NCBI RefSeq assembly: GCF_000417505.1
Contig: NZ_APHY01000015.1
Location: forward strand, 1 to 52,110
Source: Megasphaera sp. NM10
Lineage (GTDB): Bacteria > Bacillota > Negativicutes > Veillonellales > Megasphaeraceae
Length of the DNA: 52,110 bases
Direction of reading: 5' to 3'
The notes under the pieces were generated by a model. That model had not been told where the DNA came from, made no database searches, and saw only the letters and a program-made list of their open reading frames with translations. Positions 5,963 to 52,110 of the stretch are shown here, piece by piece (positions within the stretch are counted from its first letter, which is position 1; each line of letters opens with the position of its first letter). A program made the position numbers and the translations under genes.

Positions 5963-6312
5963 CGTCCTTTACATTTTTCTTCCATCATACCATGGTTTAG
6001 TGGCTCGTGGCTAGTGGTTCGTGGCTCGTAGGGGCTCGCACGTGGCGAGCCCCTACGAGCATATGTGAGAATTCCATGACCCGTTTACATGAACAGTCCA
6101 TGCTAGGGATTTTGATGATTCTCCCAGCAGTGGGAACGAGAAATCATACATATCCTGAAGCGGGCGCCCCACGCGGTCGCCCCTACAGAAAACAGCGCTA
6201 GCGTTTGTAGGGGCTCGCACGTGGCGAGCCCGCCAGGGGATATGTGAGATACTTGTGAATCGGATTTGCATGAACTTTAAATTTAAATCCATCCGCTAAC
6301 TGCTAACCACTC
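5963..6312. repeat. repeat cluster (families A and D), no gene
   Basis: Contains a perfect 37-base palindrome at 6024-6060 built on GTAGGGGCTCG-CACGTG, a second A-type half at 6161-6186 (GGGCGCCCC...GCCCCTAC), a third at 6207-6232, tandem GTGGCTCGTGGCTAGTGG words, and TTTAAATTTAAA near 6275. Short reading frames across it follow the palindromes and have no ribosome sites. Confidence 0.75.
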
Positions 6313-47266: not shown

Positions 47267-48403
47267 ATGAAATCTATTGGTTCAATAATCAAAGAGAATC
47301 TGGTACTTTTTCTGGCAGTGGCAGCGGCGCTGGCGTCGATGACGGCCGTACCGCCTTCGGCTGCTTATGCCGGGTATATCAATATGCCTGTACTGGCGAT
47401 TTTGTTCTGTCTCATGGTCGTCATCGGCGGCGTGCGGGAAAGCGGCGTCTTTTCTGCCGTGCTGGCCCGTCTCCTGCTCCGCCTGGGGACGATGCGCCAG
47501 CTGGCGGCGGTCCTGGTATTTGCCTGTTTTTTTGTCAGCATGTGGGTGACCAATGATGTGGCCCTCCTGACCTTTGTGCCTTTTTCCCTGATGGCCCTGC
47601 CCAAGGTGGCCAGTGAGGAACAGATGGCTCTTGTCATCGTCCTCCAGACGCTGGCGGCGAATCTGGGCAGTATGTGTACGCCCGTCGGCAATCCGCAGAA
47701 CTTGTATCTTTATTTTTATTACGCTATGGATTTGCCATCGTTTCTGACGCTGCTCCTGCCATATACCCTGGTGTCTTTCCTGCTGCTTACGCTGTCCCTG
47801 TTCCGCTTGCCGGGGACGCCGATTCCCATTTCCGTCCGGCTGGCTGCCCGGCGGACAAGGAACCTGCCTGTCTTGGCGCCATCGCGTCGGCTCTGGCTCT
47901 TGGGCGGGATGTTTTTCCTGTCCCTGCTCACTGTGGCCCATGTCCTCGATTACCGCCTTACCTTGGCCATCGTTATCGTCGTTACGTCATTGACCCGGCC
48001 ACGGTATTTCCGTTATGCCGATTACCGGCTTCTGGGAACCTTTGTGGCCTTTTTTATCCTCGTAGGCAATATGAGCCAGCTGCCTGGCTTCCGGGACCTG
48101 TTGACGGGATACCTGGAAGGCCATGAATTCCTCATCGCCCTTTTGGCAAGCCAGGTCATCAGTAATGTGCCGGCAGCCGTCCTCCTGTCGGGCTTTACCG
48201 ATGAGGCAGCGGCCTTGCTGCTGGGAACCGATATAGGTGGCCTGGGGACACTGATCGCCTCCATGGCAAGCCTCATTTCCTATGGCATGTACGTCCGGGC
48301 CTGTCCCCGGCAGCAGGGAAGGTATCTGAAACTATTTAGCCTGCTCAACCTGGCCTATCTGCTGGTGCTGGTCCTGTTTGCCTGGTTGTTGGTCAGGTGC
48401 TGA
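47267..48403 (+). CDS. ion transporter of the SLC13/ArsB-like (citrate-transporter) superfamily
   Basis: The product has 378 residues with about 10 membrane segments. MVVIGGVRESGVFSAVLARLLLRLG, MWVTNDVALLTFVPFSLMAL and LQTLAANLGSMCTPVGNPQNLYLYFYY are the typical ion-transporter (CitMHS/ArsB/NhaD-like) first repeat with the N-D and G.P.GNPQN signatures; the second repeat has LIALLASQVISNVPAAVLLSGF and LLLGTDIGGLGTLIASMASLISY. The substrate (dicarboxylate, arsenite, or sodium/proton) is not decidable. No good ribosome site stands before ATG 47267 (GAAGGACATAGC is weak). Its last codons (WLLVRC) run into a family C repeat. Confidence 0.85.
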   Translation: MKSIGSIIKENLVLFLAVAAALASMTAVPPSAAYAGYINMPVLAILFCLMVVIGGVRESGVFSAVLARLLLRLGTMRQLAAVLVFACFFVSMWVTNDVALLTFVPFSLMALPKVASEEQMALVIVLQTLAANLGSMCTPVGNPQNLYLYFYYAMDLPSFLTLLLPYTLVSFLLLTLSLFRLPGTPIPISVRLAARRTRNLPVLAPSRRLWLLGGMFFLSLLTVAHVLDYRLTLAIVIVVTSLTRPRYFRYADYRLLGTFVAFFILVGNMSQLPGFRDLLTGYLEGHEFLIALLASQVISNVPAAVLLSGFTDEAAALLLGTDIGGLGTLIASMASLISYGMYVRACPRQQGRYLKLFSLLNLAYLLVLVLFAWLLVRC

Positions 48404-48428
48404 AACGGACTGCCATAGAGGGCGCGAC
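48390..48428. repeat. partial family C repeat overlapping the 3' end of the transporter gene
   Basis: GGTCAGGTGCTGAAACGGAC then TGCCATAGAGGGCGCGAC match the right part of family C units at 15509-15572 and 49588-49662. The transporter stop codon (48401-48403) lies inside it. Confidence 0.55.
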
Positions 48429-48468
48429 CGCGCTGGCTATATGGAAATGAAGTGAAGCAGTATAATTG

Positions 48469-48511
48469 AACAGGGCCTGTCGCACGTCATCGTGCAGGAC
48501 CCTGTTTTTTA
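48469..48511 (+). terminator. terminator, variant of the shared stem
   Basis: AACAGGGCCTGTCGCACG-tcat-CGTGCAGGACCCTGTT plus T's. A longer form in which the CTGTCGCA word is still readable on the left arm. Confidence 0.8.
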
Positions 48512-48613
48512 TAGGCAGAAAACGTATTACTTTTTTAGATTAAAATAGATGAGAATCTGCTTCGGTCATTTGGCAGTCAAAATGGCAGAATGACAGAAAG
48601 CCGGAAAAGATGG

Positions 48614-48656
48614 TATAATGAAATAACTTGGTCGCTGACCGACTAAGAAAAGCGAC
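48614..48656 (+). repeat. 36-nt hairpin repeat, copy 1 (5' leader of the nuclease-like gene), with its -10 box
   Basis: TATAAT at 48614-48619 with ATGACA 18 bases upstream predicts a start at about 48626, inside the repeat at 48621-48656. CTTGGTCGCT pairs with AGCGACCGAG across GACCGACTAAGAAA (10 bp, one G-T pair), so the transcript begins with this hairpin. Confidence 0.7.
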
Positions 48657-48726
48657 CGAGATAGATGACAGCGGATTTGTATTTCTGCAAGGGAAAAGAC
48701 TGATTTAGGCAATGATAGGATATTAT

Positions 48727-49329
48727 ATGATTATGAACGCGAAAAAATTTCTTGATGAATTTCTAAAGAAAATAAAGAAGAAGAGCGTTTATGAAGGTCG
48801 GAAATTATTTGATATTTATAAATCTGATTCAGCGTATACACCTGTGATTACAAATATTATCAATGAAATCATTAAAGAAGCTGATTATACTCCTCAAAAT
48901 GAATATTTCAGAATTGATGTTGTAGGATGGACTTCACATTATGCGGATATGAAAAAAGATGCTGATGAGGAAGGTATTGATATAAAACCTCATCTGTGGG
49001 ATTTGAAAATTGCTGTTGAGCATGAGAATGATAAGTCTGACTGGTCAGATGAAGTGATGAAATTGATTCATGTTAAATGCCCACTAAAAGTTGTTATTGC
49101 TTACAGCTATTCTGATGAACGAGGCATAACAGAACTTAATAAGTTGAAATTTCTTGCTGGTCAGATGAAAAAGGTCGAGGCTTTTAATATCGGTAAAAAA
49201 CAGGAAGAATATTTGATTATTCTTGGAAATGGATGTAATCATAAAACGGGTATGCAAGATTATCAAGACTTTGGGTATATTGGTTATTTATATGATTGGG
49301 AGGCTGAAGCGTTCACAAAATTAAACTGA
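48727..49329 (+). CDS. PD-(D/E)XK-nuclease-like orphan protein (about 200 aa)
   Basis: ATG 48727 has TAGGAT 6 bases upstream; ATG 48712 has no useful site. Not a family I can name. The sequence YFRIDVVGWTSHY...WDLKIAVEHENDKSDWSDEVMKLIHVKCPLKVVIAYS follows the pattern of a restriction-endonuclease-like core: an Asp on one strand (RIDVVG), a Glu on the next (IAVEHEN), a helix (WSDEVMKLI), then a buried strand (LKVVIAYS). AT-rich composition and A/T-ending codons mark it as acquired. It stands alone between two copies of a 36-nt hairpin repeat. A defence or selfish role is a fair inference, not shown. Confidence 0.6.
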   Translation: MIMNAKKFLDEFLKKIKKKSVYEGRKLFDIYKSDSAYTPVITNIINEIIKEADYTPQNEYFRIDVVGWTSHYADMKKDADEEGIDIKPHLWDLKIAVEHENDKSDWSDEVMKLIHVKCPLKVVIAYSYSDERGITELNKLKFLAGQMKKVEAFNIGKKQEEYLIILGNGCNHKTGMQDYQDFGYIGYLYDWEAEAFTKLN

Positions 49330-49350
49330 CCAATGCGTTCGATTAGTCGA

Positions 49351-49399
49351 AAATAACTTGGTCGCTGACCGACTAAGAAAAGCGACTAAGTTAACGACT
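49351..49399 (+). repeat. 36-nt hairpin repeat, copy 2, with extended stem
   Basis: 49351-49386 is identical to 48621-48656. Here the right arm continues as AGCGACTAAGTTA, pairing with TAACTTGGTCGCT over 13 bp with one G-T pair. CGACTAAG words follow in tandem to 49402. The copy begins 21 bases after the stop of the nuclease-like gene. Confidence 0.75.
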
Positions 49400-49411
49400 A
49401 AGGTAGCGATA

Positions 49412-49485
49412 TGTTGAGAGGATGAGCCTAGTACATCCGTAAACCCGTTTTTCGTGGGTGCTCCGTTAGGCAGTTGGATGATTAC
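49412..49485 (+). other. possible structured RNA or leftover of a mobile element
   Basis: GGATG (49420) can pair with CATCC (49434), or CATCC can pair with GGATG (49476); GCCTA (49426) can pair with TAGGC (49467), enclosing AACCC/GGGT. The mutually exclusive pairings look like an RNA switch, but no known class was recognised and no gene follows closely. Confidence 0.3.
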
Positions 49486-49499
49486 CCTGGCAAATTGGA

Positions 49500-49700
49500 G
49501 GACTGGAAATCGTACATAGACTGGAGCGGGCGCCCCACGTGGCGCCCCTACGCACCAATGTCTTGTGTTGTAGGAACGTGACGGGCCCTTTTCAGTCCGT
49601 CAGGTCATGAATGCAAAGAATGGCAAGATGGTTGCTGAAACGGACCGCCGTAGAGGGTGTGCCAATAAATGGCCTTGGCAGACTTTTCACTCGTTGCGTC
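49500..49700. repeat. family A and C repeats in the 3' accessory zone
   Basis: A unit half at 49525-49552 (GGGCGCCCCACGTGGCGCCC), then a full C unit at about 49588-49662 (CCTTTTCAGTCCGTCAGGTC, GCTGAAACGGACCGC, GTAGAGGG). No gene in 49400-50221 apart from the listed elements. Confidence 0.7.
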
Positions 49701-49769
49701 TTGCCGGTTCTATGTGAAAACACGTGCCATAGCCATTCCTGAATACGCTGAACCAGTCTGAATATAAGG

Positions 49770-49822
49770 AAAAATCACCTGTTTCAAGGGTTGGGTTATG
49801 CCCTTTGAAACAGGTGATTTTT
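49770..49822. terminator. long perfect hairpin, bidirectional terminator
   Basis: AAAAATCACCTGTTTCAAGGG pairs, with one bulge, with CCCTTTGAAACAGGTGATTT and T's across a 10-base loop. A and T flanks make it active in both directions. It is by far the longest stem in the window. Confidence 0.75.
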
Positions 49823-49940
49823 ATATAGAGCTTTTTTTGCTTGCAATTAAGCCTAGCAGTTTGCGAGAAGGACCAGAAGGTTTAATGTCAATTTTTCCTT
49901 TATGTCTGGGAAGACGCTAGGATAAATACAAGTGCTTTTA

Positions 49941-50032: not shown

Positions 50033-50221
50033 TTAGGATGATGTATGAATGTATTGTAGGGGGGAACATATATGGTATAATTTAGAAAAATGAAAAGGGG
50101 AAGACAAATAATAAAAAGCCAGCTTTTGTATGGTTTCCATTTGCTTTATACAAGAAAATACATAAAGTGTGGAAAAAAGAAAGTTTGCAGAATGAGTAAT
50201 CGTAATATTGGGAGAGCCATT

Positions 50222-50650
50222 ATGGATCAGAATTATTTTGAAAAATGGAAAGAATGTTCGGAAAAGTGGAATACATTATTTAATGAAGCGAACAATTTAG
50301 GATGTAAATTGTATGATGATAAAGATATGGATCTTAATCATTGGCATCAGATGGATTTAATTCAGATAAATTTACTATGGTTGAAGAGCTTACTCATCTA
50401 TGAACATGCATTAAGTTTCATTGAACAAGACATATCTGATGATGAGAGATTTGAGGTCGCCAAGATTCATTATCATGTTACGGAAATAGAAAAACTTAAT
50501 ATTGATTGTATATTGAATAATTGTAAGAATTTTGCTATCCGTGATGGATATGCAGGTTATTTTATGGAAAAAGTCCGACGCTTTGTGGAAGATGTAAAAG
50601 AAGATGTAAAAGATTCTTTCTTTTCTGACTCAGAAGAATCAGAAGACTAA
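50222..50650 (+). CDS. uncharacterised helical protein with acidic tail (142 aa)
   Basis: ATG 50222 has GGGAG 7 bases upstream and is preferred over ATG 50192. The product has about 142 residues, soluble and all-helical in appearance (WKECSEKWNTLFNEANN, LWLKSLLIYEHALSFIEQDI, FEVAKIHYHVTEIEKLNIDCIL), ending in a very acidic run DSFFSDSEESED. AT-rich. It stands 20 bases before the MORN-AAA gene, so the two probably form one operon, the small protein perhaps serving as client, partner or effector. Function not recognised. Confidence 0.65.
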   Translation: MDQNYFEKWKECSEKWNTLFNEANNLGCKLYDDKDMDLNHWHQMDLIQINLLWLKSLLIYEHALSFIEQDISDDERFEVAKIHYHVTEIEKLNIDCILNNCKNFAIRDGYAGYFMEKVRRFVEDVKEDVKDSFFSDSEESED

Positions 50651-50670
50651 TTAATATGTAAGGGGCTCCT

Positions 50671-51561
50671 ATGTTTTCAAAATACAAAGAAGTTTTGTAT
50701 CCTAATGGATATCCTAAGTATGAAGGTTTTTTTGCAGATGGAAAATTAAACGGCCGTGGCAAATCCTATTATGAAAATGGCAATTTACAGTACGATGGAT
50801 ACTGGGTGAATGGATTATACGACGGAGAAGGCGTTTTATACGATGAAGCTGGACGGGAAGTTTATAAAGGCCGATGGACTAATGGCAAACCGGAAAAGGC
50901 CGTTTTTAAAACTTCTTATACTACTGAATCAGAATCGCCTAAGCTGCGGCAATACATGGATGAATTGAATTCGTTAATCGGATTACTGGATGTCAAAAAA
51001 GAACTGAATAGTTTGATTAATTTTGTGAAAATTCAAGGCTTACGAAGCCGGCAAGGATTGGAAGTTCCTAATATTTCATTGCACATGGTATTTACAGGGA
51101 ATCCCGGAACAGGGAAAACGACGGTAGCCCGATTGATGGGAAAGATTTTGTTTGAACTTGGTTTTTTTGTCAAAAGGGCACCTTGTCGAAACCAATCGGG
51201 CGGGATTAGTAGCCGGATATGTCGGGCAAACGGCATTGAAAACAGAAAAAGTTGTCAAACAGGCTATTGGCGGCGTCCTTTTTGTCGATGAAGCTTATTC
51301 ATTGGCGACTGACGATAGTTATGGACAAGAAGCCATTGATACGTTGCTCAAATTAATGGAAGATAATCGCGGGAATTTAGTCGTCATCGTGGCAGGGTAT
51401 CCTGAATTGATGAAACAGTTCATTGATACGAATCCGGGATTGTCTTCGCGATTTAGTAAATATATCCCCTTTAAAGACTATTCTGTCGATGAACTCATTG
51501 AGATTTTTGAATTCATTTGCAAACAATATGCTTATCACATTACGGATAAAGGCAAAACCGG
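50671..51561 (+). pseudogene. MORN-repeat AAA+ ATPase (CbbX/SpoVK-like), frameshifted and cut by an IS
   Basis: ATG 50671 follows GTAAGGGGC. Residues about 8-72 contain three MORN-type repeats ([50 protein letters not shown]). A CbbX-like AAA+ domain follows: [17 protein letters not shown], Walker [19 protein letters not shown], then after a one-base frame change [18 protein letters not shown], Walker [13 protein letters not shown], and sensor NLVVIVAGYPELM. The T-run at 51162-51168 has seven T's where six restore the frame. The coding sequence ends at about 51560, where an IS256-family end begins; the C-terminal part is lost to the window. Confidence 0.8.
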
Positions 51562-52110
51562 TAGTGTCAAGATTCTTTCGCAAATTCATTTCATCCGCCA
51601 GTAAATATCGTAATCAGATATATGGATTTTCCTCGTCATTTGGCTGCTCAATTTCCATCTTGAATAGATGCTCCATGTCCATATAGCGTTTTGAGCCCCA
51701 TTCCGAGGCGGCAACATGACGAAGTCTGGCACAGACGAGCATCAAAGCACTGTTGCCGTCAGGAAAGGCACCAATGGCCCGTGTACGGCGGCGTATCTCG
51801 CGATTCACCCGTTCTGTTAGGTTATTCGTGCGGATCCGGCTCCAGTGTTCTGTTGGAAAATCCATATAGGTCAAGGTTTCGCCCACGCTGTCCTCGACTT
51901 TCTTGGCTGCGGATAAAAGCTTCATTTCACGGAGCTTGGCGGCAATGGAGACCGCCTTTTCCTGTGCAGCTTCCTTGCTCTCCTGCGCGTGGATTGCCTT
52001 GAGCATTAAGGTAACCTGCTTCATCTTAGTCTTTGGCGTCACTGTGAAGACGTTCCGGTAAAAATGGACCGTGCAGCGTTGGTATTTGGCTTCAGGAAAG
52101 ACTACAGGGA
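51559..52110 (-). mobile_element. IS256-family insertion sequence, runs off the window
   Basis: The element begins at about 51559 with GTAGTGTCAAGATTCTTTCG, related to the terminal sequences at 190 and 49946. It splits the AAA gene. Only its 3' part is visible. Confidence 0.75.
51614..52110 (-). CDS. IS256-family (Mutator) transposase, partial
   Basis: The minus-strand frame is open from the window edge to a stop at 51614 (about 165 residues). FPEAKYQRCTVHFYRNVF is the signature YQRCxVH.xRN block of Mutator transposases, preceded in full proteins by the second catalytic Asp. RTNNLTERVNREIRRRTRAIGAFPDGNSALMLVCARLRHV contains the third catalytic acid (NNLTERVNREIRRR) and the AFP block. The first catalytic Asp lies outside the window. 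It catalyses transposition of its own element. Confidence 0.9.
   Translation of the reverse strand, partial: PVVFPEAKYQRCTVHFYRNVFTVTPKTKMKQVTLMLKAIHAQESKEAAQEKAVSIAAKLREMKLLSAAKKVEDSVGETLTYMDFPTEHWSRIRTNNLTERVNREIRRRTRAIGAFPDGNSALMLVCARLRHVAASEWGSKRYMDMEHLFKMEIEQPNDEENPYI

Follow-up and report, generated by a model that had tools for sequence, protein, structure and literature searches.

An orphan gene between two copies of a short hairpin repeat in Megasphaera: a possible cassette-like unit in a repeat family that often adjoins defence genes

Why does a lone gene stand between two identical copies of a hairpin-forming repeat? The window analysed here is the whole 52,110-nt stretch of Megasphaera sp. 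NM10, and near its right end an exact direct repeat of 36 nt (48621-48656 and 49351-49386, 730 bases apart) encloses one gene. By our own arithmetic a repeat of this length is far beyond chance in 52 kb. Extension of the pair to 43 nt gave an identity of 93%. Search of the 2.61-Mb draft genome revealed these two copies only, even when up to 3 mismatches were allowed in the 27-nt core, and the controls gave 0. The bracketing described in the original prediction is thus exact, with no further copies in the genome. The features of the unit are as follows.

48590..48619, + strand: promoter-like site, ATGACA-18-TATAAT with TG, 11/12 match, top score in the region
48621..48663, + strand: repeat R1, the 36-mer 48621-48656 plus its own CGACCGAG unit
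48712..49329, + strand: AT-rich orphan gene, GC 0.317, possible PD-(D/E)XK-like product
49351..49409, + strand: repeat R2, the 36-mer 49351-49386 plus two further CGACTAAG units

R2 begins 21 bases past the stop of the gene, which ends at 49329, and R1 begins 2 bases after the best promoter-like match. Both placements agree with the original prediction, which had put the first copy at the transcript start. The promoter-like site would drive whatever comes after R1; the region holds 5 promoter-like matches against 3.4 (sd 1.8) in shuffles, which is not clearly above expectation. No terminal inverted repeats were found around the unit, and the sole inverted pair in 48400-49800 has one arm within the gene. 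A transposon or MITE with terminal inverted repeats was considered and rejected, the bracketing repeats being direct. Outside both copies lies a 23-nt direct repeat (48400-48422 and 49635-49657, 91% identity), its first copy at the stop codon of an SLC13-type transporter gene. The window holds other long exact repeats as well, a single one of 39 nt and several with lengths of 25-29 nt. Five copies of a palindromic 25-nt repeat (GTAGGGGCTCGCACGTGGCGAGCCC) lie at 6028, 6207, 26934, 35070 and 43212. Two places, 6309 and 22481, share the same 39-nt terminator-like hairpin with a run of T, a similar stretch being found in the congeneric genome G006 (L026 5466-5511).

The start codon of the bracketed gene is probably 48733 (198 aa) and not 48712, because the sole homologue found begins there. 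The GC content of 0.317 compares with a mean of 0.560 and a minimum of 0.362 over 76 tiles of the same length in 1-47000, and the gene looks foreign. The region 50090-51600 is also AT-rich (GC 0.362); therefore, low GC is not special to the orphan gene. A MORN-repeat and AAA ATPase gene (50671-51604) seems to be divided between two overlapping frames close to the end of the contig and is followed by a transposase-like ORF at the end of the window. The orphan gene was absent from the 59 other relatives searched, and no homologue was found among phages, plasmids and viral contigs. The genome contigs yielded one homologue, in a Lachnospiraceae MAG (L014), with 56% identity, and R is absent within the 3 kb examined on either side of it. 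The residues D69 ... E103-x-E105 (numbered from 48712) are invariant in both known sequences (n = 2) and fit what we take to be a PD-(D/E)XK-type site. The original prediction had asked whether relatives of the protein occur apart from the repeat and lack a nuclease core: the Lachnospiraceae homologue does stand apart from it, but it keeps the acidic motif. The protein gave no match in Pfam, PADLOC or PDB sequences. Hits to NCBIfam MDP-1 (14.4 bits against a cut-off of 53.75) and to PHROGs (E of 0.02 and above) were taken as chance. The structure model (pLDDT 42.7) was too poor to use; no fold match had an E below 0.001, and the Foldseek list obtained from such a model was taken as meaningless. 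Because the model was too poor to test the motif, the nuclease label is a lead that rests on a motif. Most likely, the cargo is a foreign nuclease-like gene, perhaps related to defence.

The window 36-mer is one form of a repeat family, R, which consists of a hairpin followed by CGACYAAG-type units spaced 12 or 13 nt. An intergenic R pattern allowing 3 mismatches was found in 11 of 252 genomes of the same class, presumably the Negativicutes (at least 90% completeness), the window genome included, at 13 places in five families with 0 control hits. In a phylum-wide sample it occurred in 3 of 398 genomes, all three of the same class and again including the window genome. A genome carries one or two copies, and no long arrays were seen. 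A 303-nt module that begins with R, derived from other loci, matched 12 of the 252 genomes, three of these matches covering tandem units only. It also matched one plasmid, pLPS-1 of Lacticaseibacillus paracasei, among 72,556 records, and no phage record. The window genome (G000) and two others, G006 and G001, are not among the module's 12: they contain R while the rest of the module is absent, and G001 has a module end besides R. The window copies cover only the first part of the roughly 300-nt module (model positions 2-42 and 2-71). The spread of R suggests transfer between distant hosts. This spread was taken from the intergenic pattern, as a looser one mixes coding and intergenic forms (34 places, 26 of 380 genomes, 7 control hits). 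No description of such a repeat was found in a search limited to the open-access literature.

The module profile was then run over the collected loci, 18 of which carry R. In this count L057 and G328:C33, both 23,231 nt long, are treated as one locus, L069 and L072 (97% identical over 539 nt) may be one lineage, and L085, a coding form with a weak module match, stands outside. Neighbourhoods together with profile searches of some neighbouring genes revealed that in 7 of the 18 loci the gene preceding R is of Fic, McrBC, GmrSD or Lamassu-like type; Fic remnants precede R in 3 more (L080, L081 and L084, by reading). Of the seven, pLPS-1 has a GmrSD restriction gene in front of R, L072 a McrBC gene and L070 a Lamassu-like/PDC-M46B gene; Fic genes occupy this place in L073, L075 and L076 and, judged by similarity to L075, in L077. 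Elsewhere the gene in front of R has an SfsA endonuclease-type domain (L071), belongs to no family (L069), or is DsbA-like, regulator-like or of another kind (L078, L083, L079 and L082, by reading); in G006 it is the glyoxalase-like gene and in the window the orphan gene. Type III restriction genes are also among the neighbours, and transposase genes lie near some copies (annotated in L074, by reading in the others). The distance from gene to R ranges from about 6 to about 780 nt. The nearest recognisable gene before R usually points towards it, the exception being copy 1 of G006, where the gene points the other way; orientation was read, not counted, from an ORF list that includes antisense ORFs.

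A second co-oriented copy of R or of the adjoining module was found within 2 kb in 7 of the 18 loci, and the two copies are co-oriented in all seven. Genes stand between the copies in six of them. Only three loci have a gene flanked by two copies of R that both bear the hairpin, and these enclose the orphan gene in the window, a glyoxalase-family gene (PF00903) in G006 and a DUF1016 fragment (PF17761) in G328. At the other four, one copy is incomplete: G198 encloses an intact Fic gene with the hairpin missing from one copy, whereas one copy lacks the R core in G060 (a reverse-oriented Fic gene, PF02661), in G068 (a reductase-like and a regulator-like gene, by reading) and in G001 (139 bp with no gene). 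For the remaining 11 loci, the stretch examined shows no further copy inside 2 kb; in G302 the second copy is about 20 kb away. The search for the 36-mer around other genes, proposed with the original prediction, therefore gave a divided answer: other genes do stand between co-oriented copies, but 11 of the 18 loci show a single copy within 2 kb of the examined sequence.

Comparison of the window with G006, which belongs to the same genus, revealed a common site with different cargo. On the left, window positions 48575-48664 match G006 L027 440-529 with 84% identity over 90 nt, about half of which is the repeat itself. On the right, two stretches are involved.

49440..49466, + strand: possible right border of the pre-insertion site, 27 nt, 93% identity, close behind R1 in G006
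49720..49884, + strand: right flank common to G006, 87% identity over 165 nt, the 3' end of a hemerythrin-type gene and its hairpin

The hemerythrin-type gene, presumably ric/ScdA, is intact at L026 5740-6471 and, by reading, in L066. Behind the matching promoter-R head, G006 carries the glyoxalase-like gene in place of the orphan gene, and the cargo genes of the two genomes have no match to each other. Different cargo thus stands between copies in a few loci, and a common promoter-R head with different cargo is present in G000 and G006. Left of the repeat it is window copy 1 that matches G006 copy 1, whereas right of the repeat it is window copy 2. The simplest account of this switch is that a 730-bp segment, made up of a gene and one R, went into an R that was already there. 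In G001 another gene, and no R, follows the transporter homologue; the R of this genome is found at another place, preceded by a Fic remnant and followed by a Cas1-like gene (names by reading). As 12 of 15 genomes of the genus gave no transporter match at the threshold used, the site is comparable in three genomes only. Two of these, G000 and G006, share it, and no single species yielded an empty-site pair. The 3' end of the hemerythrin-type gene with its hairpin occurs twice in G006, about 7 kb apart (L026 5740-6536 and L027 1130-1292), once with the intact gene, and could mark an island border. Recombinase-like ORFs, of the serine type by reading, lie upstream in G006 and G001.

Based on these comparisons, we tentatively propose that the two 36-mers are the borders of an inserted 730-bp unit of one gene and one R. 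The unit would have entered an existing R that stood behind a promoter. R itself is a family of short repeats frequently located on the 3' side of defence genes in this class, and cargo could be gained, lost or exchanged by recombination between co-oriented copies. A circular gene-plus-R molecule might integrate by a single crossover; the enzyme would most simply be RecA, although a site-specific recombinase yet to be recognised is possible. We hold this whole reading to be the best available, at somewhat less than an even chance. The direction of the event, the circular intermediate, the enzyme and recombination at R itself are all steps that we infer. The captured one-gene unit of the original prediction accordingly finds partial support, since other cargo occurs between copies and behind the G006 head; its movement would be one of these conjectural steps. 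Several observations count against the proposal. No recombinase could be linked to R; three of the seven second copies are without the R core and a fourth is without the hairpin; and the module DNA search misses G000, G006 and G001. The Lachnospiraceae homologue without R and the 11 loci with no second copy inside 2 kb weigh in the same direction, as do the partial module coverage of the window copies, the opposite orientation of the gene before copy 1 of G006, the presence of the site in two genomes only, the R-less transporter homologue of G001 and the low GC of 50090-51600. If cargo is really exchanged at R, the repeat would be a cheap handle for new defence genes in this class of bacteria, and genes between copies or just before R would be candidates. 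It would also be a cassette-like arrangement without a visible integrase. The locus may reflect either a cassette arrangement that lacks an integrase or ordinary recombination within defence islands in decay.

The latter possibility is the closest rival, which we consider somewhat doubtful. Here R would be the 3' tail of an old Fic lineage spread with defence islands, the window copies would be decayed or duplicated Fic ends, and the gene would have arrived by island rearrangement with the help of IS elements. R does lie directly behind the Fic C-terminal domain in G198, G302 and G328 (PF21247 by profile in G198 and G328). Fic remnants precede it in G001 and G028 by reading, and transposase genes occur near some copies, the transposase-like ORF at the window end among them. 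However, the sequence left of R1 gave no convincing alignment to four Fic tails, whose scores were equalled by 22 to 103 of 500 shuffles. In addition, R stands behind GmrSD, McrBC and further genes, and the second copies are co-oriented in seven of seven loci. Much of the same data can nevertheless be explained by defence islands in decay that homologous recombination and IS elements have rearranged.

It is unlikely, in our estimate, that R is the working site of a cassette system of its own that has escaped recognition. Such a system would comprise promoter-R landing sites and gene-plus-R cassettes with mainly defence cargo, moved by an unrecognised recombinase or by R-directed homologous recombination, and R would have been domesticated as an in-frame linker in Fic proteins. 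The looser pattern finds a very similar 12-nt unit in frame in Fic proteins, as a TDQD/TDQV linker from the Fic domain to the C-terminal PF21247 (domains checked by profile in one protein, L085). Among 12 distinct Fic C-termini, a sample biased towards loci found through the repeat, eight contain the linker repeat but no R within 330 nt, three contain R but no linker repeat, and one has neither. A search of viral contigs for three DQ-form units in tandem gave 58 hits against 7 for one scrambled control. Although 22 of the 58 DQ frames reach 120 codons, the pattern cannot contain a stop in that frame, so their openness is no evidence. Tandem 12-nt repeats able to code (T/N/S)DQ(V/A/D/G) occur in several unrelated phage proteins (L107-L164; e.g. 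L127 258-758 and L114 11381-12331). In a DNA primase and in a small glycosylase-like phage protein, annotated variously and in one record as pyrimidine dimer glycosylase, the repeat sits at a length-variable region of the alignment. For each of the two, one of two named homologues is shorter there and the other has unrelated or only partly similar residues. If cargo is exchanged at R, one may also ask why so similar a 12-nt unit should be found both between genes and in frame in Fic and phage proteins.

Slightly less probable still is a regulatory element, in which the transcript would carry one hairpin in its 5' leader (R1) and another at its 3' terminus (R2), and these would control expression or be bound by the gene product or by a Fic C-terminal winged helix. 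Folding of the window copies as single-stranded DNA yielded a stem of 10 pairs (z -5.7) and one of 13 pairs (z -3.6), and their differing right arms, noted in the original prediction, pair through G.T. The strong hairpin, the promoter-like site directly before R1 and the usual co-orientation of R with the preceding gene (by reading) are consistent with such a role. However, covariation gave no support for a conserved stem. Covariation was assessed over 18 aligned copies, leaving aside L052 (G047; 13-nt deletion), L071 (divergent repeat) and L072 (near-identical to L069). That of the long stem was reached by 233 of 500 shuffles, which is no better than shuffles, and that of the short stem, little better, by 72 to 104 of 500, depending on the measure. 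In 10 of the 18 copies one long-stem pair is broken, and in 9 of them one short-stem pair. The suggestion that structure is kept under selection is thus not borne out; as far as the aligned sequences indicate, the palindrome is a property of the repeat, without evidence of selection on an RNA. Rfam gave no match at the gathering score in the window or at five other loci, and a CRISPR-repeat match at 49589-49641, below that score, was taken as chance. Membership of a structured RNA class was rejected, there being neither compensatory stem changes nor a match to a known family. In addition, a simple scan found no terminator-like match, and the cargo genes are unrelated. The RNA-regulated nuclease of the original prediction lacks support on the same grounds, covariation and Rfam. 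A type III toxin-antitoxin system with the repeats as RNA antitoxin, also raised there, is very improbable: a repeat of about 36 nt beside one gene recalls it, but the copies are only two, lie 694 nt apart and flank the gene with no tandem array, and no matching toxin family (ToxN-type) was found.

Among known systems, integron gene cassettes are one of those closest to our proposed R-bordered unit. Similar to R loci, they show one gene and one palindromic repeat (attC) as the apparent unit, co-oriented copies and a promoter-repeat head with changing cargo. The attC sites carry the consensus boxes GTTRRRY and RYYYAAC, whereas the two occur together in none of 18 R copies and GTTRRRY alone in 4 of 18. 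R loci also differ in having no integrase so far tied to them and no long arrays, with one or two copies per genome. Rickettsia palindromic elements are repeats inserted in frame in proteins; the likeness is that a very similar 12-nt unit occurs both between genes and in frame in Fic linkers and phage proteins, and the difference is that here a tandem 12-nt unit gives a TDQV-type peptide. Defence-island hot spots with repeated borders likewise have counterparts at R, where Fic, McrBC, GmrSD and type III restriction genes are neighbours. R differs from them in being one particular short repeat, found behind unrelated genes across five families of a single class.
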